Under the pieces are notes generated by a model, which was not told where the DNA came from, did no database searches, and worked only from the letters and a program-made list of their open reading frames with translations. The position numbers and the translations under genes were made by a program. 64,000 nt of DNA, taken from contig NC_087072.1 of NCBI RefSeq assembly GCF_026151205.1, positions 12,066,169 to 12,130,168 on the forward strand, read 5' to 3'. This DNA is from Bolinopsis microptera. Taxonomy: Eukaryota; Ctenophora; Tentaculata; Lobata; Bolinopsidae. Positions within the stretch are counted from its first letter, which is position 1. Each line of letters starts with the position of its first letter. Positions 17,587 to 63,967 of this stretch are shown in pieces.

Positions 17587-17739
17587 CAATTTTTTTGATT
17601 GACGATGCCAATACAACCCTTCCAGATTGTAGTTTTGCTGTTTGCATAGCAACGTCCAACGATCTCGTCAGAAGCAAGTTAAGCACAATAACGCGCGCAG
17701 CGCCACGACGTTTAAAAAAAATGATTGTACTCAGCAGCA

Positions 17740-18612
17740 CATGATTTGAACTTCTCTATCCAGGGTTACGCCGACGATCATCAGCTGTATAAAAGTTTCA
17801 AGCCAAACGAGGAGCCCCCCGTCCTTATCAACGATGTTCCCAAATGTTTCCAAGAAATTAATGACTGGATGAAAAAAAATTATCTACAGCTCAATGCAGG
17901 AAAAACTGAGATTCTTGTCTTTGGGACACCGCTTGTTCTCCAGCAGCTGTCTATAGGGGGCGTGTTTGTTAACTCTGAGACGTGTGTCAGGCTGTCACCT
18001 GTTGCAAAGAACCTCGGATTTCGTCTCGACTCTCAACTAAACTTTGGTGAGCAAATCAAGCAACTTAAAACATCGTGTTTTCTGAAACTAAGAGACCTTG
18101 CTAAGATGAAAACATTCCTCACAACCAAACAGATGGGAACACTGACTCAAGCAATTGTAATCTCATCGCTTGACTACTGCAATGCACTTTACTATGGTTG
18201 TAGTCAAGCCTCAATTACGCAGCTGCAGAACATTCAGAACCGAGCATGTCGTCTGGTTTTTGGATTAAAGAAGAGAGACTCAGTCGAGGAGAAGCTCAAA
18301 TCCCTTCATTGGCTCAAGGTGAAGGAGAGGATTGAGTTTAAGTTATGCTTACTGATTTTCAAAGCAGTCAATGGTGTTGCTCCTGCATATCTGTGTGATC
18401 TAGTAACATTTGTTAGTTCGAGTAGCAGAAGAACTTCCTCCTTACACCTACCCGTCGGATCTACAAGATCACACCCAAGAGCGTTTCAGACTGTTGCTCC
18501 GAAAATCTGGAACCAACTACCAATTGAAATTAAGACTTGTTCCGATGTTGATCTGTTCAAAACATTATTAAAAACTCACCTGTTTAAGAAAAGTTATGGC
18601 ATGAGCGATTAA
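17740..18612 (+). pseudogene. L2/CR1-like LINE, 3' part of reverse transcriptase
   Basis: A frame of about 290 residues starts in the middle of the RT palm with NFSIQGYADDHQLYKSFKP (YADD catalytic motif), followed by WMKKNYLQLNAGKTEILVFG, LGFRLDSQLNF, SLDYCNALYYG, LKSLHWLKVKERIEFKLCLL and IWNQLPIEIKTC at the C terminus. This is the C-terminal third of an L2/CR1-type polymerase. The upstream part is missing, the usual 5' truncation of LINEs, with the break near 17740. Confidence 0.85.
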
Positions 18613-33000: not shown

Positions 33001-33192
33001 GTGCTTGATAGAATGGATTATAACGAATTATATCATGATTTTGAATACAATTTGAGCAGTAAGTTTTTTCTCTAAAAGTGGCAATGTTTTCCTGTGTTTT
33101 ACATCTCTTGTGAATGATGCAATCACACTTATTGCAATTTATAAATGGGTGTCCAGCACGAATAGGTTGGTGCAGCAGACACAGTTCTCACA
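30018..33192 (-). pseudogene. LINE ORF2: PHD-type finger, endonuclease, RT
   Basis: The frame opens after a TGA near 33196 with CLLHQPIRAGHPFINCNKCD and CIIHKRCK..CSNC, a PHD-like finger. Then an APE endonuclease (SVIGLAETN, YILGDFNVN), a linker, and RT: YRPVSILPIFGKIFEKIIY, IDLSKAFDTLDHGIL, VPQGSILGPLLF and YADDTNIF. A frameshift in an A8 run near 30440 passes the reading to SATGALNRIKHSVP... and the C-terminal block ends early at 30018. There is no ATG before the endonuclease in this frame, so the copy is inactive. Confidence 0.87.
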
Positions 33193-36757: not shown

Positions 36758-37090
36758 AATCAGAATACATATGTTCTCATATATACAAATCCGATCTATT
36801 CATAGAAAAATAGTATTATAAAACATTGCATTTCTATTTTATCCAGGCTACACATTTGTAAATAACTAGAATTGTGTAACCTTAAATTATTTCAGAATTA
36901 TAACTATTGTGAATTCAATAAAATAATCATCACTTTTGTATCCTTGTATCCTTGTATCCTATACGTCTCTTATCTGTAGTTTAAAAGTCAGGGGTGCAGC
37001 CGTTGTAGTTTGTACTTCAATTAAAATAATTGATGTTATTTTATCAAAATCAGCCACCCGTTCAGAATTGATTGTTGAGCTCTGTGTGTA

Positions 37091-39016
<1,926 letters not shown>

Positions 39017-42200: not shown

Positions 42201-45200
42201 CCCGAGCAGTTTGAGTATTTCTATTAATCGTTTCTCTGCAATGATACAGAAGATGTACTGTCACATTTGATTTGCCATGACTATTGGTTTGCTGACTATA
42301 AATGATTCTATATTGTTCCCTGTGACGTCTTGTTTTGAGTTCCCTTTCCCTCTTGCTCATAACGCCCGGTGAATAATTTATACATTATTTCTTAGCATTC
42401 TTTTGTTAGGCTTGGCCAGTTAGGTCATTTCATGAGCATAGCTGGCAAGTTCATTATTACTGACTATTTCAACCGTTTATTTTAAAATTGTGGATAATTA
42501 CAGAATGAGATCATTTCTTTTCCTGAGACACTTAACTCGAAAAGTGTCGAGGTTGGTGATGGCATCATGGCATGTTGACCCAGTTTGCATAGAAAATCGT
42601 TTGATCCAGTTAACAGCTTGCTTTTCAGGAGAAGGTCTAAAGATGACTCAGTGGTACCGATCCTCTCCCAGTACCCCCAGTCTCCTATGTCTAAGTGAGT
42701 GCTATACAAATCAACAACTCTCTTTTCACATACCGTTAAATCAAGATTTATTTGTCTTCTTCGGTATTTCTGTTTTTCTCCACTCCCCAAATAACACCTT
42801 CCTGTCGAGGTAATTTCTAATAACACCACCTATATTTCCTAATAACACCACCTATATTTCCGGACCAACTCTTCGTATCTAGACGGGTTTCTTTCGTCAT
42901 CACCCTCTCAATCCGTTTTATCGACTAACTCCGTTTTATCGACTAACTCCTCTTTTTACCAATTTATCCGGCCCCTCCCTATTCCACAGATCCTTTTTAT
43001 TTCCCACAGGTGTCAATTAGTTGCGGCAAAATCCTTGCTTATAATACCGCATAGTTCCACATAATCTAAATTTTAAGTATGTTTACTTACTATTTGTAAT
43101 ATTGAAAGTGCCCGACCGCTTGTGAGCCAGCTTTTGAGCCAGCTTGGTAGGTGTCCAGTTCCAGCGGTTAGTAATAAATTTGTTTACAAAAACTAATCAT
43201 TCTAGAAGTGCCACCAACCCTTGAGTGAAACGTACACTTCCAAGTGCATTTGCTAGTTCCATATAATTACAGCATCGCCGCAAACAAATCAACTTTCCGT
43301 ACATTGTACCATTTTGTATAGTTGCGGTGCCGCATTATTTGCAAACGATACCGCAACTTAACCATGTCTTTGTTATTTCCGGCTAATTCCTTTACTTTCC
43401 CGACTCCATCTCCCGACTAGCTGAATCCCTGTCAGTTCCCACTCTCTACTTTCCCTCTATTACCCTCTTGTTCTCGTGACACACTGACCAACATGTCTCA
43501 CTAGGTTCCCTCTATTACCCTCTTGTTCTCGTGACACACTGACCAACATGTCTCACTAGGTTCCCTCTATTACCCTCTTGTTCTCGTGACACACTGACCA
43601 ACATGTCTCACTAGGTTCCCTCTATTACCCTCTTGTTCTCGTGACACACTGACCAACATGTCTCACTATGTTCCCTCTATTACCCTCTTGTTCTCGTGAC
43701 ACACTGACCAACATGTCTCACTAGGTTCCCTCTATTACCCTCTTGTTCTCGTGACACACTGACCAACATGTCTCACTAGGTTCCCTCTATTTCCCTCTTA
43801 TTCTCGTGACACACTGACCAACATGTCTCACTAGGTTCCCTCTATTACCCTCTTGTTCTCGTGACACACTGACCAACATGTCTCACCAGGTTCCCTCTAT
43901 TACCCTCTTGTTCTCGTGACACACTGACCAACATGTCTCACTAGGTTCCCTCAATTACCCTCTTGTTCTCGTGACACACTGACCAACATGTCTCACCAGG
44001 TTCCCTCTATTACCCTCTTGTTCTCGTGACCCACTGACCAACATGTCTCACCAGGTTCCCTCTATTACCCTCTTGTTCTCGTGACACACTGACCAACATG
44101 TCTCACTAGGTTCCCTATATTACCCTCTTGTTCTCGTGACACACTGACCAACATGTCTCACTAGGTTCCCTCTATTACCCTCTTGTTCTCGTGACACACT
44201 GACCAACATGTCTCACCAGGTTCCCTCTATTACCCTCTTGTTCTCGTGACACACTGACCAACATGTCTCACTAGGTTCCCTCTATTTCCCTCTTGTTCTC
44301 GTGACACACTGACCAACATGTCTCACCAGGTTCACTCTATTACCCTCTTGTTCTCGTGACACACTGACCAACATGTCTCACTAGGTTCCCTCTATTACCC
44401 TCTTGTTCTCGTGACACACTGACCAACATGTCTCACTAGGTTCCCTCTATTTCCCTCTTGTTCTCGTGACAAACTGACCAACATGTCTCACTAGGTTCCC
44501 TCTATTACCCTCTTGTTCTCGTGACACACTGATCAACAAGTCTCACCAGGTTCCCTCTATTACCCTCTTGTTCTCGTGACACACTGACCAACATGTCTCA
44601 CTAGGTTCCCTCTATTTCCCTCTTGTTCTCGTGACACACTGACCAACATGTCTCACTAGGTTCCCTCTATTACCCTCTTGTTCTCGTGACACACTGACCA
44701 ACATGTCTCAATAGGTTCTCGTGACACACTGACCAACATGTCTCACTAGGTTCCCTCTATTACCCTCTTGTTCTCGTGACACACTGACCAACATGTCTCA
44801 CTAGGTTCCCTATATTACCCTCTTGTTCTCGTGACACACTGACCAACATGTCTCACTAGGTTCCCTCTATTACCCTCTTGTTCTCGTGACACACTGACCA
44901 ACATGTCTCACTAGGTTCCCTCTATTTCCCTCTTGTTCTCGTGACACACTGACCAACATGTCTCACCAGGTTCCCTCTATTACCCTCTTGTTCTCGTGAC
45001 ACACTGACCAACATGTCTCACTAGGTTCCCTCTATTACCCTCTTGTTCTCGTGACACACTGACCAACATGTCTCACTAGGTTCCCTCTATTACCCTCTTG
45101 TTCTCGTGACACACTGACCAACATGTCTCACTAGGTTCCCTCTATTACCCTCTTGTTCTCGTGACACACTGACCAACATGTCTCACTAGGTTCCCTCTAT

Positions 45201-48200
45201 TACCCTCTTGTTCTCGTGACACACTGACCAACATGTCTCACTAGGTTCCCTCTATTACCCTCTTGTTCTCGTGACACACTGACCAACATGTCTCACTAGG
45301 TTCCCTCTATTACCCTCTTGTTCTCGTGACACACTGACCAACATGTCTCACCAGGTTCCCTCTATTACCCTCTTGTTCTCGTGACACACTGACCAACATG
45401 TCTCACCAGGTTCCCTCTATTACCCTCTTGTTCTCGTGACACACTGACCAACATGTCTCACTAGGTTCCCTCTATTACCCTCTTGTTCTCGTGACACACT
45501 GACCAACATGTCTCACTAGGTTCCCTCTATTACCCTCTTGTTCTCGTGACACACTGACCAACATGTCTCACTAGGTTCCCTCTATTACCCTCTTGTTCTC
45601 GTGACACACTGACCAACATGTCTCACTAGGTTCCCTCTATTACCCTCTTGTTCTCGTGACACACTGACCAACATGTCTCACTAGGTTCCCTCTATTACCC
45701 TCTTGTTCTCGTGACACACTGACCAACATGTCTCACTAGGTTCCCTCTATTACCCTCTTGTTCTCGTGACACACTGACCAACATGTCTCACTAGGTTCCC
45801 TCTATTACCCTCTTGTTCTCGTGACACACTGACCAACATGTCTCACTAGGTTCCCTCTATTACCCTCTTGTTCTCGTGACACACTGACCAACATGTCTCA
45901 CTAGGTTCCCTCTATTACCCTCTTGTTCTCGTGACACACTGACCAACATGTCTCACCAGGTTCCCTCTATTACCCTCTTGTTCTCGTGACACACTGACCA
46001 ACATGTCTCACCAGGTTCCCTCTATTACCCTCTTGTTCTCGTGACACACTGACCAACATGTCTCACTAGGTTCCCTCTATTACCCTCTTGTTCTCGTGAC
46101 ACACTGACCAACATGTCTCACTAGGTTCCCTCTATTACCCTCTTGTTCTCGTGACACACTGACCAACATGTCTCACTAGGTTCCCTCTATTACCCTCTTG
46201 TTCTCGTGACACACTGACCAACATGTCTCACTAGGTTCCCTCTATTACCCTCTTGTTCTCGTGACACACTGACCAACATGTCTCACTAGGTTCCCTCTAT
46301 TACCCTCTTGTTCTCGTGACACACTGACCAACATGTCTCACTAGGTTCCCTCTATTACCCTCTTGTTCTCGTGACACACTGACCAACATGTCTCACTAGG
46401 TTCCCTCTATTACCTCTTGTTCTCGTGACACACTGACCAACATGTCTCACTAGGTTCCCTCTATTTCCCTCTTGTTCTCGTGACACACTGACCAACATGT
46501 CTCACTAGGTTCCCTCTATTACCCTCTTGTTCTCGTGACACACTGACCAACATGTCTCACCAGGTTCCCTCTATTACCCTCTTGTTCTCGTGACACACTG
46601 ACCAACATGTCTCACTAGGTTCCCTCTATTACCCTCTTGTTCTCGTGACACACTGACCAACATGTCTCACTAGGTTCCCTCTATTACCCTCTTGTTCACG
46701 TGACACACTGACCAACATGTCTCACTAGGTTCCCTCTATTACCCTCTTGTTCTCGTGACACACTGACCAACATGTCTCACTAGGTTCCCTCTATTTCCCT
46801 CTTGTTCTCGTGACACACTGACCAACATGTCTCACTAGGTTCCCTCTATTACCCTCTTGTTCTCGTGACACACTGACCAACATGTCTCACCAGGTTCCCT
46901 CTATTACCCTCTTGTTCTCGTGACACACTGACCAACATGTCTCACCAGGTTCCCTCTATTACCCTCTTGTTCTCGTGACACACTGACCAACATGTCTCAC
47001 CAGGTTCCCTCTATTACCCTCTTGTTCTCGTGACACACTGACCAACATGTCTCACTAGGTTCCCTCTATTACCCTCTTGTTCTCGTGACACACTGACCAA
47101 CATGTCTCACCAGGTTCCCTCTATTACCCTCTTGTTCTCGTGACACACTGACCAACATGTCTCACTAGGTTCCCTCTATTACCCTCTTGTTCTCGTGACA
47201 CACTGACCAACATGTCTCACCAGGTTCCCTCTATTACCCTCTTGTTCTCGTGACACACTGACCAACATGTCTCACTAGGTTCCCTCTATTACCCTCTTGT
47301 TCTCGTGACACACTGACCAACATGTCTCACTAGGTTCCCTCTATTACCCTCTTGTTCTCGTGACACACTGACCAACATGTCTCACTAGGTTCCCTCTATT
47401 ACCCTCTTGATCTCGTGACACACTGACCAACATGTCTCACTAGGTTCCCTCTATTACCCTCTTGTTCTCGTGACACACTGACCAACATGTCTCACTAGGT
47501 TCCCTCTATTACCCTCTTGTTCTCGTGACACACTGACCAACATGTCTCACTAGGTTCCCTCTATTACCCTCTTGTTCTCGTGACACACTGACCAACATGT
47601 CTCACTAGGTTCCCTCTATTACCCTCTTGTTCTCGTGACACACTGACCAACATGTCTCACTAGGTTCCCTCTATTTCCCTCTTGTTCTCGTGACACACTG
47701 ACCAACATGTCTCACTAGGTTCCCTCTATTACCCTCTTGTTCTCGTGACACACTGACCAACATGTCTCACCAGGTTCCCTCTATTACCCTCTTGTTCTCG
47801 TGACACACTGACCAACATGTCTCACTAGGTTCCCTCTATTACCCTCTTGTTCTCGTGACACACTGACCAACATGTCTCACTAGGTTCCCTCTATTACCCT
47901 CTTGTTCTCGTGACACACTGACCAACATGTCTCACCAGGTTCCCTCTATTACCCTCTTGTTCTCGTGACACACTGACCAACATGTCTCACCAGGTTCCCT
48001 CTATTACCCTCTTGTTCTCGTGACACACTGACCAACATGTCTCACTAGGTTCCCTCTATTTCCCTCTTGTTCTCGTGACACACTGACCAACATGTCTCAC
48101 TAGGTTCCCTCTATTACCCTCTTGTTCTCGTGACACACTGACCAACATGTCTCACTAGGTTCCCTCTATTACCCTCTTGTTCTCGTGACACACTGACCAA

Positions 48201-51200
48201 CATGTCTCACTAGGTTCCCTCTATTACCCTCTTGTTCTCGTGACACACTGACCAACATGTCTCACTAGGTTCCCTCTATTACCCTCTTGTTCTCGTGACA
48301 CACTGACCAACATGTCTCACCAGGTTCCCTCTATTACCCTCTTGTTCTCGTGACACACTGACCAACATGTCTCACCTAGGTTCCCTCTATTACCCTCTTG
48401 TTCTCGTGACACACTGACCAACATGTCTCACCAGGTTCCCTCTATTACCCTCTTGTTCTCGTGACACACTGACCAACATGTCTCACCAGGTTCCCTCTAT
48501 TACCCTCTTGTTCTCGTGACACACTGACCAACATGTCTCACTAGGTTCCCTCTATTACCCTCTTGTTCTCGTGACACACTGACCAACATGTCTCACTAGG
48601 TTCCCTCTATTACCCTCTTGTTCTCGTGACACACTGACCAACATGTCTCACTAGGTTCCCTCTATTACCCTCTTGTTCTCGTGACACACTGACCAACATG
48701 TCTCACTAGGTTCCCTCTATTACCCTCTTGTTCTCGTGACACACTGACCAACATGTCTCACCAGGTTCCCTCTATTACCCTCTTGTTCTCGTGACACACT
48801 GACCAACATGTCTCACTAGGTTCCCTCTATTACCCTCTTGTTCTCGTGACACACTGACCAACATGTCTCACTAGGTTCCCTCTATTACCCTCTTGTTCTC
48901 GTGACACACTGACCAACATGTCTCACCTAGGTTCCCTCTATTACCCTCTTGTTCTCGTGACACACTGACCAACATGTCTCACTAGGTTCCCTCTATTACC
49001 CTCTTGTTCTCGTGACACACTGACCAACATGTCTCACTAGGTTCCCTCTATTACCCTCTTGTTCTCGTGACACACTGACCAACATGTCTCACTAGGTTCC
49101 CTCTATTACCCTCTTGTTCTCGTGACACACTGACCAACATGTCTCACTAGGTTCCCTCTATTACCCTCTTGTTCTCGTGACACACTGACCAACATGTCTC
49201 ACTAGGTTCCCTCTATTACCCTCTTGTTCTCGTGACACACTGACCAACATGTCTCACTAGGTTCCCTCTATTACCCTCTTGTTCTCGTGACACACTGACC
49301 AACATGTCTCACTAGGTTCCCTCTATTACCCTCTTGTTCTCGTGACACACTGACCAACATGTCTCACTAGGTTCCCTCTATTACCCTCTTGTTCTCGTGA
49401 CACACTGACCAACATGTCTCACTAGGTTCCCTCTATTACCCTCTTGTTCTCGTGACACACTGACCAACATGTCTCACTAGGTTCCCTCTATTACCCTCTT
49501 GTTCTCGTGACACACTGACCAACATGTCTCACTAGGTTCCCTCTATTACCCTCTTGTTCTCGTGACACACTGACCAACATGTCTCACTAGGTTCCCTCTA
49601 TTACCCTCTTGTTCTCGTGACACACTGACCAACATGTCTCACTAGGTTCCCTCTATTACCCTCTTGTTCTCGTGACACACTGACCAACATGTCTCACTAG
49701 GTTCCCTCTATTACCCTCTTGTTCTCGTGACACACTGACCAACATGTCTCACTAGGTTCCCTCTATTACCCTCTTGTTCTCGTGACACACTGACCAACAT
49801 GTCTCACTAGGTTCCCTCTATTACCCTCTTGTTCTCGTGACACACTGACCAACATGTCTCACTAGGTTCCCTCTATTACCCTCTTGTTCTCGTGACACAC
49901 TGACCAACATGTCTCACTAGGTTCCCTCTATTACCCTCTTGTTCTCGTGACACACTGACCAACATGTCTCACTAGGTTCCCTCTATTACCCTCTTGTTCT
50001 CGTGACACACTGACCAACATGTCTCACTAGGTTCCCTCTATTACCCTCTTGTTCTCGTGACACACTGACCAACATGTCTCACTAGGTTCCCTCTATTACC
50101 CTCTTGTTCTCGTGACACACTGACCAACATGTCTCACTAGGTTCCCTCTATTACCCTCTTGTTCTCGTGACACACTGACCAACATGTCTCACTAGGTTCC
50201 CTCTATTACCCTCTTGTTCTCGTGACACACTGACCAACATGTCTCACTAGGTTCCCTCTATTACCCTCTTGTTCTCGTGACACACTGACCAACATGTCTC
50301 ACTAGGTTCCCTCTATTACCCTCTTGTTCTCGTGACACACTGACCAACATGTCTCACTAGGTTCCCTCTATTACCCTCTTGTTCTCGTGACACACTGACC
50401 AACATGTCTCACTAGGTTCCCTCTATTACCCTCTTGTTCTCGTGACACACTGACCAACATGTCTCACTAGGTTCCCTCTATTACCCTCTTGTTCTCGTGA
50501 CACACTGACCAACATGTCTCACTACGTTCCCTCTATTACCCTCTTGTTCTCGTGACACACTGACCAACATGTCTCACTAGGTTCCCTCTATTACCCTCTT
50601 GTTCTCGTGACACACTGACCAACATGTCTCACTAGGTTCCCTCTATTACCCTCTTGTTCTCGTGACACACTGACCAACATGTCTCACTAGGTTCCCTCTA
50701 TTACCCTCTTGTTCTCGTGACACACTGACCAACATGTCTCACTAGGTTCCCTCTATTACCCTCTTGTTCTCGTGACACACTGACCAACATGTCTCACTAG
50801 GTTCCCTCTATTACCCTCTTGTTCTCGTGACACACTGACCAACATGTCTCACTAGGTTCCCTCTATTACCCTCTTGTTCTCGTGACACACTGACCAACAT
50901 GTCTCACCAGGTTCCCTCTATTTCCCTCTTGTTCTCGTGACACACTGACCAACATGTCTCACTAGGTTCCCTCTATTACCCTCTTGTTCTCGTGACACAC
51001 TGACCAACATGTCTCACTACGTTCCCTCTATTACCCTCTTGTTCTCGTGACACACTGACCAACATGTCTCACTATGTTCCCTCTATTACCCTCTTGTTCT
51101 CGTGACACACTGACCAACATGTCTCACCAGGTTCCCTCTATTACCCTCTTGTTCTCGTGACACACTGACCAACATGTCTCACTAGGTTCCCTCTATTACC

Positions 51201-52115
51201 CTCTTGTTCTCGTGACACACTGACCAACATGTCTCACTAGGTTCCCTCTATTACCCTCTTGTTCTCGTGACACACTGACCAATATGTCTCACTAGGTTCC
51301 CTCTATTACTCTCTTGTTCTCGTGACACACTGACCAACATGTCTCACTAGGTTCCCTCTATTACCCTCTTGTTCTCGTGACACACTGACCAACATGTCTC
51401 ACTAGGTTCCCTCTATTACCCTCTTGTTCTCGTGACACACTGACCAACATGTCTCACTAGGTTCCCTCTATTACCCTCTTGTTCTCGTGACACACTGACC
51501 AACATGTCTCACTAGCTCACTAGGTTCCCTCTATTACCCTCTTGTTCTCGTGACACACTGACCAACATGTCTCACTAGGTTCCCTCTATTTCCCTCTTGT
51601 TCTCGTGACACACTGACCAACATGTCTCACTAGGTTCCCTCTATTACCCTCTTGTTCTCGTGACACACTGACCAACATGTCTCACTAGGTTCCCTCTATT
51701 ACCCTCTTGTTCTCGTGACACACTGACCAACATGTCTCACTAGGTTCCCTCTATTACCCTCTTGTTCTCGTGACACACTGACCAACATGTCTCACTAGGT
51801 TCCCTCTATTAACCTCTTGTTCTCGTGACACACTGACCAACATGTCTCACTAGGTTCCCTCTATTACCCTCTTGTTCTCGTGACACACTGACCAACGTCC
51901 AACATGTCTCACTAGGTTCCCTCTATTACCCTCTTGTTCTCGTGACACACTGACCAACATGTCTCACCAGGTTTCAGAGTGGATTACAACTCAGTGTTTA
52001 CAACATCAAACCAGAACACTTTGCTCAGCAGCTCACATTCCTGGATCAGCGGTACCTGCTAGCAATGTCTCCCAGAGAGCTGCTCTACTGCGAGAAGATC
52101 AACGACGATAAAGTG
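39017..52115 (+). CDS. RasGEF-domain gene (partial, 4 exons)
   Basis: Exons 39017-39205, 39319-39592, 39742-39874 and 51971-52115 join in phases 0, 1 and 2 with no stop, about 247 residues. The N-terminal 155 residues (LATYDIKLIFSDISELPKKV, LKLSDYTFYFSGEILVVENR) form no domain I can name. Exon 3 is a Ser/Pro linker. Exon 4 reads LSVYNIKPEHFAQQLTFLDQ and YLLAMSPRELLYCEK, the opening helices of a CDC25-type Ras guanine nucleotide exchange domain (usually ...P.EIAEQLT..D..LF..I.P.EL). The product would activate a Ras-family GTPase; which subfamily is not clear. The rest of the catalytic domain must lie past 52115. A TAA two codons before the ATG at 39017 supports that start, but an earlier exon cannot be excluded. 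Confidence 0.72.
39319..39592 (+). CDS. RasGEF gene, exon 2
   Basis: Acceptor CAATTTTCAG, donor ACG|GTTAGT, phase 0 to 1. Encodes IWKSAKETHPYEVDAILKLS and an acidic end (DTAEDDGSDLEP). Confidence 0.72.
39742..39874 (+). CDS. RasGEF gene, exon 3
   Basis: Acceptor TTGTTGAGCAG, donor ACAG|GTAATT, phase 1 to 2. Encodes LPCALSPPAFFVIPPPYQSK and a Ser-rich end. Confidence 0.72.
40446..41046 (+). repeat. 34-bp minisatellite
   Basis: About 13 copies of a unit with AACTATTTGTTATCTCAGTG and AGGTGCGACACAGT, interrupted by the MITE at 40506-40653. Confidence 0.93.
40506..40653. mobile_element. hAT-type MITE, copy 2
   Basis: 148 bp, same ends as the copy at 3366 (CAGGGACAAAAGG) and about 90% alike inside, flanked by the 8-bp duplication GTGAGGTG (40498-40505, 40654-40661) made from the minisatellite unit. 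Confidence 0.95.
41504..41543. repeat. Hairpin, 18-bp arms
   Basis: AAGGGAACTCTATTACCC and its complement with one mismatch, loop AGCT. Similarity continues weakly outwards (41490-41556), so it may be a very small palindromic MITE. Confidence 0.85.
41729..41770. repeat. Hairpin, 17-bp perfect arms
   Basis: CTGTGTTTCTGCCAACG and its exact complement around an 8-nt loop, followed by a further partial copy CCAACGATATTGGC. Confidence 0.88.
43450..51970 (+). repeat. 55-bp minisatellite, about 155 copies
   Basis: Unit begins GTTCCCTCTATTACCCTCTT, continues GTTCTCGTGACACACTGACC and ends AACATGTCTCACTAG or CACCAG. Most units are identical or differ at CTAG/CCAG and TTACCC/TTTCCC. The central part (about 48950-50890) is the most uniform, suggesting recent expansion. 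The array ends exactly at the exon 4 acceptor. Confidence 0.99.
51971..52115 (+). CDS. RasGEF gene, exon 4 (start of RasGEF domain)
   Basis: The acceptor CATGTCTCACCAG is the last unit of the 55-bp minisatellite. A second AG six bases on (GTTTCAG) would shift the frame into a stop, so the first is used. Donor GTG|GTGAGT, phase 0. Confidence 0.78.
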
Positions 52116-52170
52116 GTGAGTTAAATCATGGTTATAATAGTGTAATTTCAGTTAACTTGATGAGTAGTTG

Positions 52171-53964
52171 TTCACTTACTAGGGATTCCTGGTTACTGAT
52201 TATAGTCGGTTCAAGTAATTCCTGGTCACTTATTAGCGATTCCTGGTTACTGATTAAAGATGTTTGTAATTCCTGGTAACTTATTAGGGATTCCTGGTTA
52301 CTGATTATAGTCGGTTGTAATTCCTGGTCACTTATTAGGGATTCATGGTTACTGATTATAGTCGGTTTTAATTTCTGGTCACTTATTAGGGATTCGTGGT
52401 TACTGATTATAGTCGGTTGTAATTCCTGGTCACTTATTAGGGATTCATGGTTACTGATTATAGTCGGTTGTAATTCCTGGTCACTTATTAGGGATTCGTG
52501 GTTACTGATTATAGTCGGTTGTAATTCCTGGTCACTTATTAGGGATTCTTGGTTACTGATTATAGTCGGTTGTAATTCCTGGTCACTTATTAGGGATTCT
52601 TGGTTACTGATTATAGTCGGTTGTAATTCCTGATCACTTATTAGGGATTCCTGGTTACTGATTATAGTCGGTTGTAATTCCTGGTCACTTATTAGGGATT
52701 CCTGGTTACTGATTATAGTCGGTTGTAATTCCTGGTCACTTATTAGGGATTCCTGGCTACTGATTATAGTCGGTTGTAATTCCTGGTCACTGATTAGGGA
52801 TTCCTGGTTACTGATTATAGTCGGTTGTAATTCCTGGTCACTGAATAGGGATTCCTGGTTACTGATTATAGTCGGTTGTAATTCCTGGTCACTTATTAGG
52901 GATTCGTGGTTACTGATTATAGTCGGTTGTAATTCCTGGTCACTTATTAGGGATTCGTGGTTACTGATTATAGTCGGTTGTAATTCCTGGTCACTTATTA
53001 GGGATTCATGGTTACTGATTATAGTCGGTTGTAATTCCTGGTCACTTATTAGGGATTCTTGGTTACTGATTATAGTCGGTTGTAATTCCTGGTCACTTAT
53101 TAGGGATTCCTGGTTACTGATTATAGTCGGTTGTAATTCCTGGTCACTTATTAGGGATTCATGGTTACTGATTATAGTCGGTTGTAATTCCTGGTCACTT
53201 ATTAGGGATTCGTGGTTACTGATTATAGTCGGTTGTAATTCCTGGTCACTTATTAGGGATTCGTGGTTACTGATTATAGTCGGTTGTAATTCCTGGTCAC
53301 TTATTAGGGATTCGTGGTTACTGATTATAGTCGGTTGTAATTCCTGGTCACTTATTAGGGATTCCTGGTTACTGATTATAGTCGGTTGTAATTCCTGGTC
53401 ACTTATTAGGGATTCATGGTTACTGATTATAGTCGGTTGTAATTCCTGGTCACTTATTAGGGATTCGTGGTTACTGATTATAGTCGGTTGGAATTCCTGG
53501 TCACTTATTAGGGATTCTTGGTTACTGATTATAGTCGGTTGTAATTCCTGGTCACTTATTAGGGATTCCTGGTTACTGATTATAGTCGGTTGTAATTCCT
53601 GGTCACTTATTAGGGATTCCTGGTTACTGATTATAGTCGGTTGTAATTCCTGGTCACATATTAGGGATTCCTGGTTACTGATTATAGTCGGTTGTAATTC
53701 CTGGTCACTTATTAGGGATTCCTGGTTACTGATTATAGTCGGTTGTAATTCCTGGTCACTGATTAGGGATTCCTGGTTACTGATTATAGTCGGTTGTAAT
53801 TCCTGGTCACTTATTAGGGATTCCTGGTTACTGATTATAGTCGGTTGTAATTCCTGGTCACATATTAGGGATTCCTGGTTACTGATTATAGTCGGTTGTA
53901 ATTCCTGGTCACTTATTAGGGATTCGTGGTTACTGATTATAGTCGGTTGTAATTCCTGGTCACT
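52171..53964 (+). repeat. 51-bp minisatellite, about 35 copies
   Basis: Unit contains GGTTGTAATTCCTGGTCACT, TATTAGGGATTCCTGG and TTACTGATTATAGTC. It starts about 55 nt past the exon 4 donor. Main variable position is the base in GATTCNTGG. Confidence 0.98.
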
Positions 53965-55391
53965 GTTTCCATTGGTATCTGAAAAAGGAATTTCCAGAGC
54001 GGCGTCTGTTTCGACATTATAAACCCATTTAACTTTAAAGTCTGTCTAGGCTACAGTAGTAGTGTAGCCGCTACACTACCTTAATTTAACGGTGATACTA
54101 CCTCAGTCACATGTTAAATCAAGTGTAAAGAGAAGAAATGTGAACCACACACTCCACTACACACCACTACACTACACTACCACTTTCACTTGCAACAGTT
54201 GGGTTATGAGCGTGGAAGGTGATGATGGATTTACCGCGTGTAGTTGAAATATCCCAAATATTCCATATAACATGACTGGTGAGCCCGCTAAAGGAATGCT
54301 GCATCCGCCCGATTTTAATCAGCAGCCTCGTATAATGTAGAACATTCTAAAACATTCCCAGATATTTGGGTGTTTACAACACCAAATCAACTGATGAAAA
54401 GTTTGCGGTATCTTAATTGGAGCAAACAATTATCTAACCAATTTCTTGAGGTGTTCTCAGGTTTTACGTCAGTCAGGAATTATTATGTAGCTTAATTCTT
54501 GGAGCTCTGCCAAGAAAAGGAATGTTATTAGTAGGAGAATCTGAAGGGATATGTTATTATGAGAATGTGAGCAAGCACACATCACAGTACACTGTTTACT
54601 GGAAATGTAGTGACGTCAGGCTGGCGGGATCTCTCCACCATCCCACCTGATAATATGCATGTGTGCAAATGCCAATCATCTCACGAGTTGGCTCATTAGA
54701 TGTGATGGGCGTGTAACAAACAACATTTAATTAATTAGTAACACACAGCTTCTACCTTTAATTAATTAGTTACACTTAGCTTTAAAGTATTTATACGTTA
54801 ATACTGTATTACTATTTATAACATAATAAGTTACACATACCATTCATTATATGTCCCTAGTAGGTTATTCTATTAATAGATCATAGAACTAATTTGAATC
54901 TTATTGCTGTGTAAATTTGATTCTAATTCTAATGATTCTAATATTCTAATTGCTGTGTAATTAATAAGCAAGGTTACATTAGCCAGTACACGTGGCCCCC
55001 TGCTCGCATGTAACTATACATCACTCCGTCCAGTTTGTTGGTCCGTACTAAAAGGAAATACACACCTTACCAACTACTTCTCCCAAATTTACTCCAAAAT
55101 ACACACGCGAGGTGTGCCGGAGAGTAAATACACACCCCGTCTTCCACAGACCACCCCACAGACCACCCCACTGACCACCCGTCTTCTACAGCTAGATGTA
55201 TAACGCTCAGACGGCAGCGCTTGACCCGTTAATTATTTTATATTTATATTAGACACGTGATCATCACTGAAGTAAAAACGGTTATATCAGGTGATACGTC
55301 CGTGACATGTGATGTCGCCTACTATAACACAGATTCTGTGCTCAATATCAGTTATTCTATGTAATATTTCTTATTATACATTTATGTTTAA
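53965..55391. other. No gene seen
   Basis: AT-rich, with small direct repeats such as TTAATTAATTAGT (54727, 54764) and CCACCCCACAGACCACCCCA near 55150. No RasGEF exon was recognised. Confidence 0.5.
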
Positions 55392-55899
55392 GGGGGCATA
55401 CACCAAAACAGTGGTTTGTTCCGTCCAACCCAAATGGTCTCAACCAAAATAATTATTTTCTCCATAATCCCGCTCTAACCAGGAAATGCTCGATTACAAA
55501 AATAGGTATTCTCAAAAAAAATTTTTTTGTTGGGGACCGGCCCGAAGTACCAGCCAATGTTTACTCAAAAAATAATATATATAATAAGTGTTAATTCAAA
55601 CTCAAAACTCATACAAGATTAGATCTCATTAAAACGATTAAAATGTATATAATAGAGCTTGTCGAACAAAACATAGCTGAGCACATTTAAAGTTGCCTTA
55701 AGTTGAAATTATCATATTAATATGCTTTTAGAGTTGTTAGAGTGGAAACAGGCGCATAGCTACTGCTAGCTAGCTATTCCAAAATTTTTGAAATTTAACG
55801 ACTGTTATCAGTCGCATAGCGTCATGCCGTTTTTGCTGGCGAATTGATGGCAGTGTAACTGAGATGGTATGCAGTGAAATTGATTCTGTGATGGCGTGC

Positions 55900-58800
55900 T
55901 TATGGGACAGAGTTATTATTAGCATTACGGTTGATGTTGCGCTCTGATTTCCTTAGTCCCGTAATATTGTATAACATAAAGTTAGGCCATTCGTCTGCAA
56001 TGCCCTCGTTTTGTTGATCAATGAGCATGTTTTTTATGCACCTTTTGTAGATGTTAAGGTTGAATAGACTTGGCAAGGAAGTTGCTGCGACACTATATCT
56101 GTTTATTGCTAATAGTGGACCTTTGTAGAATACTGAATTATTGTAAGGGTGTTTACCGTATTCATCTGACCATAAAGTTGTAAGACTCGAATCCGGATCG
56201 GCGACGTTAAATATTGGTGCACTGTTAGGTATTGTTTTCTTTATAGAGGGAGGCACTAGACTTGGGAAGTTTTTTAGCTTATGTATAAAAACTAATGCGT
56301 TCTTTACGATGATACTATGAACTGTCAATATTTTGTGTACATAGAAACCAGACTTGGTACTTGCTGGTGGTGTACCATCTTTGTACCAGTAATTAACAAA
56401 ACCTGGTAGTATTGCTCTAAGACCCATTTTCTGTTTAACAAATAGTGTTTCTATATGGGATTTGGCAGCAAAACCCCAGACGAGGGAGCAGTAATTAAGG
56501 TGAGACTGCACAAAGCTGTGATATATTTGTAAACGTGCTTCCAGAGGCAAATATTTTTTAAGTTTGTACATGACTCCAATGTATCTGGCCATTTTCATTT
56601 TCATGGCAGAAATATGTTGCGACCAGTTCAGTTTGTTATCTATTATAACACCTAAGAAACGGGCTTCTGTTTTTCTTTCGATTGTGACACCGGAAATTAC
56701 TACATCGCGATAAATGAGGTTTCTTTGTCGAGAAAAGATCATATAATTCGTTTTTTTAAGATTTAGAGCTAATCCGTTGCTATCTACCCATTTAACTAAG
56801 ACATCGCTAAGAATTTTGAGCTTATCATAAACCTCGTTTATATTTTCTCCCGTTAGGAAAATGTTTGCATCATCTGCGTACATGATGAAATTAGCTATTT
56901 CTGATATTTGAGGAAGATCGTTTATGTAGATTATAAAAAGGAGAGGTCCCAAAATTGAACCTTGGGGTACACCGTAAATAATTGGATTGGCTGAGGATTC
57001 AGAGGATCCAATTGATACAAACTGGTTTCTGTTCATAAGATATGATTTAAACCAGTTTAAAGCTAGACCTCTTATGCCATAGTGCTCGAGCTTATTCAGG
57101 AGTATGGAGTGATCCACAAGGTCAAATGCTTTGCTAAAGTCAATCAAAAGGAGCAAAGTAACTTGCTTTTTAGACATTGAATTGAGGATTCTGTCTTTAG
57201 CATTAAGAAGTGCATGTTCACAAGACCTACCTGGGCGGAAGCCGTATTGATTTTCACAAAGAATATTGTAGGTATCCAAGAAATTTATGACTCGATTGTG
57301 CATAAGCTTTTCGTAGACTTTTGAGAAAGTGGCAAGTAGAGATATCGGTCTGTAATTTTTGATGTCAGTTTTAGATCCACCTTTATGTACAGGAACTACT
57401 TTTGCCGTTTTCAAGGCTTGGGGAAAGACCCCTTGTTCGAACGAGCTGTTAACAACGTGGGCCAATACAGTGGTAAAATTATGACAGCTGTTGGCAATTT
57501 TGAGTGGTTGGATTTTGGTGTCAAGAGTAGCTTTATTCTTAAATAGGTTAATAACGTCTTGAACTTCGGTAGTTGTGACTGGTTTTATGTAGATACTATT
57601 TGGAGAAGGGTTACGTAGTGTCCCCTGGGCCCCACCAGGATCGAAAGTGGTCCTACTACTAATTTCAGATTTAATTTTTGGAGCGATGTTTGAGAAGTGA
57701 TCATTAAATTTTTCTGCTACTGCTGCCGGAGTGCTGACTTGTCCGTTTTCGTCCGACAGTTTTATCGATGTAGGTTTGGATGGTTTCCTATTCAGAAGTC
57801 CGTTAATCATCTGCCACTGCTTCTTAGAATTATCTTTGTGTTGTTCAAAGAATTTTTTGTAGTGTATGTTTTTGGCTTTGTCAACGTGTTTGGTGCAAAA
57901 CTTTTTCAAACGGTCATATTTTAGCTGGTTCCTATCAACTGGTTCCTTAACAAAATCATGATATGCCTGATTTTTACGTTCTATAGCTTCTTCAAGCCAG
58001 GGCAGTATCCATGGTTTGGGATTAACACGTTCATTTTGTCTGCGCTCGGACTGTCTTTTTGTCGGGTAGGCAGCGTTATAAATCCTGTTGTAAGCCGAAT
58101 TTAAACAATCAAACTGCTGGTTAGCATCAGGGGTATTTGTTAGTATTACAGACCAATTTTCTTCCATTATTAAATCTCTAAATTTATGGTTGTTGGCCTC
58201 ATTAAAACTACGTACGTTGGTTTGTGTTGGATTTTGATTATAAGATGCGGAGCGGTAACTGCTGTTGGATGTATTATCAAGATTAATTGTTGTAACTATC
58301 GCTAAGTGATCCGACAGATCTGTCGTTAATACGTTGCAGCTTATTGTATCTTCAAGATTGTTCGTGTAGATATGATCAATAAGCGTGGCACTGTGGTCTG
58401 TTATGCGAGTTGGATGTGATACAATTTGGATGAAACCGTAAGAGGATGCAATATCTATAATGCTTTGACATGCCTGGTTGCTACTGTGCTTCAGTAAATT
58501 TAGATTAAAATCTCCATGTAACGTCATATGTTTGCGAGAGTGTCTTCCCAGGTTGTGAAGCGTACTTTTAAAAATTTCAAGAAATGCTTCAGGTTTTCTA
58601 GCGGGAGAGCGATAAACATTTCCAATTATCTTTGTTCTATTATATCCTTTACACTGGTGGATCTTGATAAATTGAAATTCGCCGCTAGTATTTGAGGGTT
58701 CAGGGTTGGGATTGAAAACATCAATTTTATCAGAGTCAGCTACACGTTTGTGTATGTATATGGCAAGCCCCCCACCTTTACCCGATGTGCGGATGGGATC

Positions 58801-59385
58801 TTGGATATACGGTTCATGGAATCCATTTAATGTGATGTCGTTTATTCCGTTAGGCAATTTTTCTAGTGTGCAGTTAGTTTCGTTAAAACACAATACATCA
58901 TACTTATCATATATTTCTATATCTTCTCGTAGTTGATCAATATTTTTGAAAAGGGATCTGATATTCATGGAAAATGTTTTAAGTTGAGAGGATGTCGACC
59001 TTTTTACGTTACGTTGCTGTTTATACTGACAGTGAGTTAGGAAAGCCGAAATGTCACTCCATGTTGAATCCTGGTGCTCTTCATTGGTCATGGCGTCTCC
59101 AATAAGATTACATCGACTATTTTGAGCGTATGGATTATAAATAGCGCAATTAAGCTTATTGTAGTCATCGTAAATTTCATAGTAAGTCGCGTAAAATCCA
59201 GGAATAAGACTTTCACAACAGCTTGTACAACCTAAATTTTCCTTAAAACATTTGACGTGGACGTTGTTTTGGCACCATGAACAGCTGCGGATGTTTTTGG
59301 AAGAATAACACCAGCCGCTACAGCTACCACATTTTATTTTGATTTTATGACCAGAAGTATCAGTAACATTTCCATTCGCTGCCAT
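55900..59385 (-). CDS. LINE ORF2: PHD-type finger, endonuclease, reverse transcriptase
   Basis: 1161 codons, uninterrupted, ATG at 59385. Residues 19-56 have a C4HC3 pattern (C19, C22, C35, C38, H43, C46, C53, C56), a PHD-like finger. APE endonuclease about 138-370: FSMNIRSLFKN, LCFNETNC, GDFNLNLL near 290 and LSDHLAIV near 357. RT about 650-930: YRPISLLATFSKVYEKLMH, LIDFSKAFDLVDHSIL, VPQGSILGPLLF, and YADDANIFLTG at 834. The C-terminal part (SQHISAMKMKMARYIGVMYK, YCSLVWGFAAKSHIE) is CR1-like. All catalytic motifs look whole, so the protein could be functional. Confidence 0.92.
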   Translation of the reverse strand: MAANGNVTDTSGHKIKIKCGSCSGWCYSSKNIRSCSWCQNNVHVKCFKENLGCTSCCESLIPGFYATYYEIYDDYNKLNCAIYNPYAQNSRCNLIGDAMTNEEHQDSTWSDISAFLTHCQYKQQRNVKRSTSSQLKTFSMNIRSLFKNIDQLREDIEIYDKYDVLCFNETNCTLEKLPNGINDITLNGFHEPYIQDPIRTSGKGGGLAIYIHKRVADSDKIDVFNPNPEPSNTSGEFQFIKIHQCKGYNRTKIIGNVYRSPARKPEAFLEIFKSTLHNLGRHSRKHMTLHGDFNLNLLKHSSNQACQSIIDIASSYGFIQIVSHPTRITDHSATLIDHIYTNNLEDTISCNVLTTDLSDHLAIVTTINLDNTSNSSYRSASYNQNPTQTNVRSFNEANNHKFRDLIMEENWSVILTNTPDANQQFDCLNSAYNRIYNAAYPTKRQSERRQNERVNPKPWILPWLEEAIERKNQAYHDFVKEPVDRNQLKYDRLKKFCTKHVDKAKNIHYKKFFEQHKDNSKKQWQMINGLLNRKPSKPTSIKLSDENGQVSTPAAVAEKFNDHFSNIAPKIKSEISSRTTFDPGGAQGTLRNPSPNSIYIKPVTTTEVQDVINLFKNKATLDTKIQPLKIANSCHNFTTVLAHVVNSSFEQGVFPQALKTAKVVPVHKGGSKTDIKNYRPISLLATFSKVYEKLMHNRVINFLDTYNILCENQYGFRPGRSCEHALLNAKDRILNSMSKKQVTLLLLIDFSKAFDLVDHSILLNKLEHYGIRGLALNWFKSYLMNRNQFVSIGSSESSANPIIYGVPQGSILGPLLFIIYINDLPQISEIANFIMYADDANIFLTGENINEVYDKLKILSDVLVKWVDSNGLALNLKKTNYMIFSRQRNLIYRDVVISGVTIERKTEARFLGVIIDNKLNWSQHISAMKMKMARYIGVMYKLKKYLPLEARLQIYHSFVQSHLNYCSLVWGFAAKSHIETLFVKQKMGLRAILPGFVNYWYKDGTPPASTKSGFYVHKILTVHSIIVKNALVFIHKLKNFPSLVPPSIKKTIPNSAPIFNVADPDSSLTTLWSDEYGKHPYNNSVFYKGPLLAINRYSVAATSLPSLFNLNIYKRCIKNMLIDQQNEGIADEWPNFMLYNITGLRKSERNINRNANNNSVP

Positions 59386-60134
59386 TTTAAGTTAACTCTT
59401 ATGCTTGTGGAGGAATTAGAGAATAAAAAATGTATAAATTTATAAATAACGTAAAATATATCTATACTAGTGCAAATCAGATTCTTTCACGAGAACCGGA
59501 GGTCCTGTATGCTACAGAATCGTGATCTGAGTCTTATCTACTTATTTGTTAAAAATATTCGCTAAATCAAATGTTACAATATAGTGCCCTTATCTCGATT
59601 TTCGGGCTTATCAGTATGATAATATGACTTTACCTAAAGTGTATATTAAGTCGTTGTGATTTGTATGTTGTTGTGTGAAATTGTTTCGTTGTGTAGTTTT
59701 GTGTGGTGATTTTTGCTATTTAGTTGTTTGTGAAGTTTTCGAAAATACTGTTGCACTGAACTTTGACTGAGGAAACGTGCTTGATGCTGATTTACCAGAG
59801 AAGCTTCTATGATTATTAAATAAAATGTGCACAGTTTTGTTTGGTAATGTGAAAATGTTTTAGGAAATGTATGGTGGGATGATAAGAGACAAAAATGCTT
59901 GATAGTTAAAGAATGTTCATCAGTTCATCTGATAAGCTTAAGAAGATAAGCATTTTCGACCAATCAGATCATTTCTTCAAAAATCGATCGTGGTAGCAAT
60001 CAAATGATGAATTTGGATGAGGAGTGAGGATGTACTGAAAAAGATATGAAAATACTTGATGATATGCATAATTTAAGGGCTTGACAGAAAAGGTTGATTT
60101 TTATATAATTATTAATTCATTTATGGATTAGTGC
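59386..60134 (-). other. Spacer between LINE ORF1 and ORF2
   Basis: About 750 bp without a frame, long for this LINE type, where the two frames usually lie close together. No insertion signature seen. Confidence 0.5.
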
Positions 60135-61562
60135 TCAACCACGGTGATATCTGAAAGGACTGTTAGGCTCATGGTGGTAGAGCCACGCACAGTTCCTGTG
60201 GCGTGGCAGTTCTGATCCACATAACTTGCCAACGCAGTTGACAAGTTCATATGCAACAGCCCTTCTGACATCGTGATGTAAAAGGATGCCATGCTTATCA
60301 TTGCGGTCCCATACGTAGTATGAATGAACCCGCTTGATAACGGCATGGGCATCGTAAAATGTCAGATTGGGAATCACCCTGGCGAGATTCACCATACATA
60401 GATTAAAATCATCAATTTCTCTGTTCAACCAACCAATTCTAGTTAAAGACAAAGCACAAAAAACAAACTGTGTGCTTTTGTTGCTCTTACAGCTTTCGAC
60501 AAGGCGGGGACAAAAGTTATCAGCCAGACTCTTGGCAGATTTTCCATACCGTGAAAGATCGTTTATGCCACATGAGATGATCACAGTTTTGGCATGTTTG
60601 AGGTCATGATCTAAAGAGTCTATGAGCTGGTAGTTCAAACGCTTCTGACAGCGGTGGCCGGGTATCTGATCGAACAACCATTCAGGTGTTTCACGATGAA
60701 TAGAGTCATGAATGAATAGGACCCTGGAGTGACGAGACTGAGAGGAGGAGTTCTGAGCTGGAGGGGCAACAGGTGGTATCCGATGGAGAGCTGGAGGTGC
60801 AGGCACAGTGCATGACTCTTGTTGTTTCAGTTTGCGGAAAGTCAGTGAAATGCGTGGAAACCTTGCCGAGATATCGCGGTCAATGCCGTGGCGCCAGTTG
60901 TCCTGATCTGCTCGTGACATGACGTAAAGTGAACCGTGCACAAGTGGAATGTTACGCTCGACAAAGGGGCCTACTGTACTTGATATCCTAAGGTTTCTAG
61001 GTGCTCCAATCGACACTGTATAAATTTGACTATCCTCCATTATGCTAGGTTCGCTGTCTTTATGCATCGGTATGCCGACCGATCCGTCCTTGTATAAAGT
61101 GCAAAGGCAAGTGTAGTTCTCTGGGGTTATGTCAGCGTCCAGTTTTTGCAGTTGCTCGTACACACGTTCCAGAGTGGGTGGAAGTGGCCCAACAGAGACA
61201 GGATGTGAGGTTCTGCCGTACGTGTAGGGGACGGAGCCATAATAAGTTGTGATACGGCCTCCAGGGTGGTGCATGTCGAAGTTTTGCTCACTTGAAACTT
61301 TATCAAAAGTTAACTCGGAAAGATCGCACTCTAAAAGTCTTACCGGCGAATGAGGCATACTTGTAACTTCTCTGGAAGTGTCGAGGTTCTGCGAGGGGGC
61401 TTCAGAGATGAGAGTTGCAGTCTGCTGTGTGATGAGGGTGGTCTGTTTCTTCGTTTCATCAGAGACTTCTTCGATCGCCGTCAGAGCACGTTCTGTTAGA
61501 TGTTTCACCGCCTTCTCGCACTCCCCATTATCAAATAATTTGTTTTCTGTGGAAACGGTGCG
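60135..61562 (-). CDS. LINE ORF1: AlkB-like dioxygenase + SGNH hydrolase
   Basis: Open from after a TAG at 61565; counted from the GTG codon at 61508 it has 457 residues. No ATG precedes the first Met at about residue 51, so the start is lost or non-ATG. Residues 85-226 are AlkB-like: RITTYYGSVPYTYGR, NYTCLCTLYKDGSVGIPMHK with Fe ligands H149 and D151, VSIGAPRNLRI, HGSLYVMS, H207 in NWRHGI, and R219/R225 in PRISLTFR for 2-oxoglutarate. All key residues are present. A Pro/Ser linker (232-260) leads to an SGNH hydrolase: FIHDSIHRE (block I, HDS for usual GDS), ISCGINDLSR (GxND), and LLHHD at the end. Known AlkB proteins remove alkyl groups from nucleic acid; SGNH domains are known in CR1 ORF1. 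The combined role here is inference. Confidence 0.85.
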   Translation of the reverse strand, partial: RTVSTENKLFDNGECEKAVKHLTERALTAIEEVSDETKKQTTLITQQTATLISEAPSQNLDTSREVTSMPHSPVRLLECDLSELTFDKVSSEQNFDMHHPGGRITTYYGSVPYTYGRTSHPVSVGPLPPTLERVYEQLQKLDADITPENYTCLCTLYKDGSVGIPMHKDSEPSIMEDSQIYTVSIGAPRNLRISSTVGPFVERNIPLVHGSLYVMSRADQDNWRHGIDRDISARFPRISLTFRKLKQQESCTVPAPPALHRIPPVAPPAQNSSSQSRHSRVLFIHDSIHRETPEWLFDQIPGHRCQKRLNYQLIDSLDHDLKHAKTVIISCGINDLSRYGKSAKSLADNFCPRLVESCKSNKSTQFVFCALSLTRIGWLNREIDDFNLCMVNLARVIPNLTFYDAHAVIKRVHSYYVWDRNDKHGILLHHDVRRAVAYELVNCVGKLCGSELPRHRNCAWLYHHEPNSPFRYHRG

Positions 61563-62889: not shown

Positions 62890-63967
62890 AACGTATAACT
62901 ACACGTATAACTACACGTATAACTACACGTATAACTACACGTATAACTACACGTATAACTACACGTATAACTACACGTATAACTACACGTATAACTACAC
63001 GTATAACTACACGTATAACTACACGTATAACTACACGTATAACTACACGTATAACTACACGTATAACTACACGTATAACTACACGTATAACTACACGTAT
63101 AACTACACGTATAACTACACGTATAACTACACGTATAACTACACGTATAACTACACGTATAACTACACGTATAACTACACGTATAAGTACACGTATAAGT
63201 ACACGTATAACTACACGTATAACTACACGTATAACTACACGTATAACTACACGTATAACTACACGTATAACTACACGTATAACTACACGTATAACTACAC
63301 GTATAAGTACACGTATAACTACACGTATAACTACACGTATAACTACACGTATAACTACACGTATAAGTACACGTATAACTACACGTATAACTACACGTAT
63401 AACTACACGTATAACTACACGTATAACTACACGTATAACTACACGTATAACTACACGTATAAGTACACGTATAACTACACGTATAACTACACGTGTAACT
63501 ACACGTATAACTACACGTATAACTACACGTGTAACTACACGTATAACTACACGTATAACTACACGTATAACTACACGTATAACTACACGTATAACTACAC
63601 GTATAACTACACGTATAACTACACGTATAACTACACGTATAACTACACGTATAACTACACGTATAACTACACGTATAACTACACGTATAACTACACGTAT
63701 AACTACACGTATAACTACACGTATAACTACACGTATAACTACACGTATAACTACACGTATAACTACACGTATAACTACACGTATAACTACACGTATAACT
63801 ACACGTATAACTACACGTATAACTACACGTATAACTACACGTATAACTACACGTATAACTACACGTATAACTACACGTATAACTACACGTATAACTACAC
63901 GTATAACTACACGTATAACTACACGTATAACTACACGTATAACTACACGTATAACTACACGTATAAC
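62890..63967 (+). repeat. 12-bp minisatellite, about 90 copies
   Basis: Tandem ACGTATAACTAC with rare variants ACGTATAAGTAC and ACGTGTAACTAC. Since 12 is a multiple of three, it gives a long artefact frame on the minus strand. Confidence 0.99.

Follow-up and report, generated by a model that had tools for sequence, protein, structure and literature searches.

The window analysed here, a stretch of 64,000 nucleotides from the ctenophore Bolinopsis microptera (assembly GCF_026151205.1, contig NC_087072.1, forward-strand positions 12,066,169 to 12,130,168), contains a LINE, that is, a non-LTR retrotransposon with an ORF1 followed, about 750 bp downstream, by an ORF2 carrying an EEP endonuclease and a reverse transcriptase, and occurring in 5'-truncated copies (Table 1). 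A Cys/His-rich finger was read by eye at the N-terminus of ORF2. Because the match to another copy of the family, L009 (L numbers denote loci of this genome), ends at 61533, and the longer copies L010, L011, L012 and L014 have 6.45-6.54 kb in common with L009 (L013 only 2.7 kb), the window copy is a 5'-truncated LINE insertion, which keeps about 6.0 kb of the element's length of roughly 6.5 kb and has lost about 0.5 kb at its 5' end. Other copies match at 97.5-99.2%. In the longer copies the ORF1 frame has 607 codons, and the window frame, which the initial annotation had delimited exactly, leaving out its strand, is a fragment thereof, with non-element sequence in its first 11 residues. No clear target-site duplication was found at the window copy, the longest flank-to-flank repeat being of six bases, a size expected by chance.

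Table 1. Features of the LINE copy in the window (positions are those of the 64,000-nucleotide stretch).
Feature	Position	Strand	Evidence or remark
LINE copy, 5'-truncated	55522..61533	-	99.25% identity to L009 over 6015 columns
ORF1 fragment, 475 codons stop to stop	60135-61562	-	match to the element begins at 61533; earliest in-frame ATG at 61358
AlkB domain (2OG-FeII_Oxy_2), P0001 residues 110-243	60834..61235	-	PF13532 E=3.5e-17
Fe-ligand motif H-x-D, here HKD (H167, D169)	61056..61064	-	
Distal Fe-ligand His (H225, in W-R-H)	60888..60890	-	
R-I-S-L-T-F-R block, two conserved Arg (R237, R243)	60834..60854	-	
SGNH-like domain, weak on its own	60138..60734	-	PF13472 E=0.02, below cut-off
Conserved SGNH His position, Leu in the window copy	60282..60284	-	HGILLHH in the window, HGIHLHH in 6/6 longer copies
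ORF2, 1161 aa: EEP endonuclease, reverse transcriptase (YADD)	55900..59385	-	RVT_1 8e-38, Exo_endo_phos 1.1e-5, both above cut-off
EEP endonuclease domain of ORF2	58306..58965	-	PF03372, 25.8 bits, cut-off 24.5
Reverse transcriptase domain of ORF2	56641..57372	-	PF00078 E=8e-38

Elsewhere in the window there are another LINE reverse transcriptase frame of 951 aa (30335-33187, minus strand; RVT_1 3.7e-39) and a fragment of a LINE reverse transcriptase frame (17725-18609, plus strand; RVT_1 0.0036), together with tandem arrays of 155 copies of 55 bp (43451-51973), 35 copies of 51 bp (52172-53964), 90 copies of 12 bp (62891-63967) and 11.6 copies of 34 bp (40654-41046), and a 660-bp TG run (37083-37742). 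The matches to DUF5483 and DUF7632 at 52135-54045 coincide with the array of 51-bp repeats, so that they are likely to be spurious, and an open frame of 826 codons on the minus strand (3363-5842) gave no Pfam match at E<=0.01.

The AlkB family identity of the ORF1 domain is, from its sequence, nearly certain. The initial annotation had named the residues H149, D151, H207, R219 and R225 of a 457-residue numbering as the AlkB signature, and these were all found in place, as residues 167, 169, 225, 237 and 243 of P0001; the profile match likewise bore out the assignment, with 63.7 bits against a curated Pfam cut-off of 31.2. By phmmer, the window ORF1 matched human ALKBH3 (8.7e-17) and ALKBH2 (about 1e-12), with alignments spanning the whole domain, and a profile of 14 element AlkB domains found in the PDB the same ALKBH3 (2.8e-30) and ALKBH2 (5.1e-25), then E. 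coli AlkB (4.6e-11) and, as a weak match, a DNA N6-methyladenine demethylase (5.4e-4); neither ALKBH5 nor FTO was among the 39 PDB sequences matched at E<=0.01. The H-x-D motif, the distal His and both Arg are invariant in 14/14 of these domains, and all five catalytic positions lie within the 17 invariant columns of an alignment with a mean column identity of 38%, the probability of which by chance is 6.9e-6 on the assumption of exchangeable columns. Moreover, the full motif is intact in 35 of the 35 loci holding the R-x-S/N-x-T-x-R block, a count that omits the loci without the block, L043 (frame not recovered), L051 (truncated) and the duplicates L001-L008.

Two positions of the domain that we take to correspond to the Asn positions of the 2-oxoglutarate (2OG) pocket of E. 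coli AlkB are changed, the first being Thr in families a-e, h and j and the second Ser in 14/14 element domains. These changes count against the reading of the domain as a demethylase and, this equivalence being granted, speak for a non-catalytic fold that would serve as the nucleic-acid-binding part of an ORF1 protein lacking an RRM or a zinc knuckle; neither an RRM nor a CCHC profile was found in the scanned ORF1s, and esterase ORF1 proteins are described, in the available text of PMC3905857, as devoid of structural RNA-binding domains. However, the iron ligands and both Arg, invariant throughout the 14 domains, would be needless for pure binding, and the unbroken motif of the 35 loci (the block-less ones lying outside this count) points in the same direction, and we hold such a binding role to be improbable.

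The claimed fusion of the AlkB domain, here to an SGNH-like domain, within a LINE ORF1 proved real and recurrent, but its SGNH half is weak, with a sub-threshold Pfam match and the late His replaced by Leu in the window copy. The SGNH profile of the window family matched a single GDSL lipase in the PDB (E=0.28), and hhalign of the family with the clearer SGNH domains of its sister families gave E=9.7e-5 at a probability of only 58%. A PDB search with L009:3900-4805, which includes no more of the AlkB domain than its end, returned no match for the SGNH part. Asp-Ser, Gly-Ile-Asn-Asp and a late Gly are invariant in ten of ten window-family rows, and the late His is present in nine of them, the exception being the window copy, which keeps the Ser block. 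When the SGNH domains of L029, L030, L031, L032, L035 and L036 were combined into one profile, its top PDB match was the esterase of ZfL2-1 ORF1 (4c1b, 1e-8). PF13472 or PF00657 was matched at E<0.05 in nine of 13 further element frames, and no SGNH match reached the curated Pfam cut-off among these 13 and the window frame. As to the remaining four, the SGNH blocks of L019 and L027 align with the window family, those of L030 were seen by eye, and the stretch of L037 stops inside the domain. Thus, being truncated and deprived of the SGNH His, the window ORF1 should not be working, and the window copy is probably inert, unlike its family.

The family itself has many copies, was active in recent times and evolves under purifying selection. 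The window ORF1 protein has at least 94 matches in the assembly of 264.65 Mb (93 of 787 candidates scored), whose identities fall in steps near 96-100%, 65-74%, 35-38% and 30%, with fragments between. In 20 regions of 10 kb fetched around such matches an ORF1 frame of 592-660 codons was present every time, followed in 14 by an unbroken same-strand ORF2 frame of 1156-1231 codons with Y/FADD; in L012, L013, L017, L018, L019 and L022 the ORF2 frame is interrupted, short or absent. Among the 37 ORF1 rows of the window family that include a 3' end, at least 26 are followed by a listed ORF2 row at a distance of 0.64-2.3 kb, which is a lower bound, as 40 of 7134 ORF2 candidates were scored. In another type, that of L032, there are 23 ORF1 rows of full length with identities of 96-100%, which reach 99-100% in 18 cases and speak in favour of a recent spread. 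Between L009 and L015, dN/dS was 0.10 in AlkB, 0.089 in SGNH, 0.244 in the N-terminal portion and 0.08 in ORF2, and between L031 and L035 it was 0.125 in AlkB, all by the Nei-Gojobori method in our own script and rough because of synonymous sites near saturation (pS 0.65-0.72); the very close pairs L009/L014 and L027/L028 (AlkB 0.93 and 0.592) differ by a handful of changes and are uninformative.

The Pfam AlkB profile PF13532 has at least 151 matches in the genome, all listed ones above its cut-off (150 of 587 candidates scored), and L033, L038 and L039 are probable single-copy host ALKBH-like genes. The notion that a host ALKBH gene or pseudogene has come by chance to lie beside or inside one LINE copy, without being part of the element, is refuted by copy number and linkage and left with a negligible probability: it is opposed by the match counts of ORF1 and PF13532, by the presence of AlkB and SGNH in one frame, by the ORF2 linkage and the selection, and by a branch that divides 18 of 20 element AlkBs from the host genes with a support of 99/98.

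AlkB was found by Pfam in all 13 further element frames (L009, L015, L019, L023, L025, L027, L030, L031, L032, L035, L036, L037, L029), and at least ten ORF1 types of the genome have the AlkB and SGNH pair, alongside ORF2s of more than one kind; the ORF2 was read for types a-f, g and h and located by coordinates for the types of L035 and L052. In L036:534-2399 and L037:727-2400 a PHD-like finger (PF00628, 0.0044 and 2.6e-4, respectively, both below the curated cut-off) is joined to AlkB and SGNH in one frame, the SGNH of L037 being cut off; judged by their ORF1, L036 and L037 are putative LINEs. A LINE family with an ORF2 of 55-56% identity had been considered as one bearing SGNH without AlkB: its first copy, L051, has SGNH alone, and none of its eight rows has an AlkB row upstream (72 of 151 AlkB rows entered). 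This candidate was dropped, since a single frame of another copy, L052, encodes AlkB together with SGNH, in view of which L051 looks 5'-truncated, and among the families examined in the genome there was none with an SGNH ORF1 lacking AlkB. At L018:5459-8467 a frame of 1003 codons runs from the start of a type a2 ORF2 into an L037-like AlkB domain, apparently a nested insertion or a chimera.

The pair was also found in a Helitron. Six of 41 genome matches to Helitron_like_N lie on the same contig and strand as an AlkB match, in the same reading frame and with an equal length of the open frame, and the one of them that was read, L029, encodes within a frame of 3388 codons, in this order, SGNH (8e-6), AlkB (4.4e-21), DUF6570 (9.1e-14) and Helitron_like_N (3.1e-22). 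A separate short frame upstream of it (L029:2835-3335, contig C10) has near its end GDVETNPGP, presumably a 2A-like peptide.

Lesions such as m1A and m3C block polymerases. Taken together with ALKBH3 and ALKBH2 as the nearest relatives, this points to m1A- or m3C-like substrates in single strands, and it is likely that an ALKBH2/3-type demethylase is directed here to single-stranded transposition intermediates. The data suggest that the AlkB-bearing elements would repair or edit their own nucleic acid during copying. Accordingly worded, our reading of the window frame is that of a truncated LINE ORF1 copy, whose protein has an AlkB-type demethylase domain of the Fe(II)/2-oxoglutarate kind, closest to ALKBH3 and ALKBH2, and after it an SGNH-like domain, the former clearing Watson-Crick-face methyls off the element RNA and cDNA, and we give it about an even chance of being correct in full. 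In such a mechanism ORF1p would coat the element RNA and the first-strand cDNA, and the AlkB domain would strip m1A, m3C and similar groups, which would otherwise halt reverse transcription or second-strand synthesis; in the Helitrons it would protect the ssDNA intermediate. Helitrons transit through ssDNA, a substrate of such enzymes, which would explain the same domain pair in two unrelated modes of transposition. The SGNH part may contribute membrane or RNP localisation, as proposed for the ORF1p of ZfL2-1 (PMC3905857).

The initial annotation had allowed both protection of the LINE nucleic acid from alkylation and the removal of host m6A or m1A marks. It is reasonable to deduce that the element repairs or demethylates nucleic acid of its own, and the ranking of ALKBH3 and ALKBH2 as nearest, with ALKBH5 and FTO missing from the listed PDB sequences, favours m1A/m3C-type repair over m6A erasure. 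The weak match of the DNA N6-methyladenine demethylase leaves room for other substrates, and hence for a counter-defence eraser, by which AlkB would remove restraining marks of the host, either m6A on the element RNA or N6-methyladenine on DNA. PHD fingers are readers of chromatin marks in other proteins, and the presence of such a finger, if below the curated cut-off, in the L036 and L037 ORF1s also agrees with an eraser, as does the AlkB of an orchid Gypsy element, which demethylates m6A RNA in vitro according to the available text of PMC9289625. However, apart from the missing ALKBH5 and FTO, transposition of human L1 is, in the accessible portion of PMC7873242, suppressed by ALKBH5 and promoted by METTL3, so that erasure of m6A need not benefit a LINE. 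We regard the eraser as rather doubtful and retain the clearing of m1A/m3C-like lesions as the preferred function.

The ORF1 proteins of L031 and L035 are 55% identical, whereas their ORF2s (C5:18136053 and C3:20036211) are 98% identical; both ORF1 types, with frames of 606-646 codons, recur above ORF2s of this kind, and of 46 such ORF2 rows at least 26 stand downstream of an AlkB row, the distance being no more than 1.4 kb in 18 cases. Therefore, ORF1 has been exchanged, replaced or recombined as a unit. An exchange of ORF1 between the CR1 and L2 lineages was inferred in the survey PMC4120745, as far as its available text goes, while here the exchange is between near-identical ORF2s. The AlkB tree comprised 27 domains, of which 20 were from elements, three from host genes and four from phages (four of eight distant AlkB records obtained by tblastn against phages), and had no ALKBH3 row. 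The 18 element rows set apart from the host genes include that of the Helitron; L030 and L042 group away from them with two phage AlkBs (89/79), and a single clade of all 20 element AlkBs was not rejected (p-AU 0.342). In the reverse transcriptase tree, restricted to rows of this genome, L030 lies on a long branch far from the others, and long branches meet in it, so that L030 and the second LINE of the window are insecurely placed. Thus, the L030-type AlkB may be a separate acquisition, and the simplest reading is that of one or two acquisitions of AlkB and a transfer between LINE and Helitron in either direction.

A more general view would be that AlkB and SGNH form a module that is portable between transposons, taken up on one or two occasions, swapped among LINE ORF1s and Helitrons within one animal lineage (probably ctenophores), and retained by selection for clearing methyl lesions or host-placed methyl marks off single-stranded transposition intermediates. 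We advance it only tentatively, the balance of probability being somewhat against the statement taken as a whole; if true, animals would have a system of repair or counter-defence that is borne by transposons. Of all parts of LINEs, ORF1 is understood least, and if many families keep a nucleic-acid demethylase domain under selection, transposition would be limited by the chemical state of RNA, cDNA or ssDNA, which is testable. The presence of AlkB in both LINEs and Helitrons points to a bottleneck common to two unrelated mechanisms, and the exchange of ORF1 over near-identical ORF2s shows that these elements evolve in modular fashion over short range. In a genome of this sort, transposons may inflate the number of AlkB repair genes that is counted automatically.

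Among the literature matches listed, which were confined to open-access sources and included the orchid Gypsy paper, none described AlkB in either a LINE or a Helitron, and papers on krill and Diplonema name AlkB, in their available text, as host genes only. The ORF1 with AlkB and SGNH and its Helitron counterpart thus appear to be new, esterase and PHD ORF1s and AlkB in an LTR element being already known. In the zebrafish ZfL2-1, with the esterase, type IV ORF1 of CR1/L2 (PDB 4c1b), the SGNH domain lies on the C-terminal side of ORF1 and ORF2 downstream, as here, but it is not preceded by AlkB; the SGNH of the window family is itself too divergent to find 4c1b, unlike the six-domain profile from the same genome. 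The esterase ORF1 is placed by the available text of PMC4120745 in two exclusively vertebrate groups only. The Ty3/Gypsy elements of the orchid Phalaenopsis also bear AlkB in many copies, however, these are LTR elements with an ALKBH5-like, m6A-active domain in a separate ORF2, as given in the available text of PMC9289625, whereas the elements described here are non-LTR and have an ALKBH2/3-like AlkB fused to SGNH. Similarly, the Flexiviridae, RNA viruses of plants, have AlkB in a mobile RNA genome, with a proposed protection of RNA from methylation (PMC544882, available text), as a part of the viral replicase polyprotein, and are likened here by description, not by sequence. The nearest solved relatives, human ALKBH3 and ALKBH2, have H-x-D, His and RxxxxxR in common with the element AlkBs, but are host repair enzymes with no SGNH fusion. 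In the last AlkB block the host-like genes of this genome have Asn, in contrast to Ser in the elements, and Ser is also found in two of the four phage AlkBs. Finally, the L029 Helitron has Helitron_like_N in common with Helitrons, with SGNH and AlkB added N-terminal to it in an order that is the reverse of that in the LINE ORF1.
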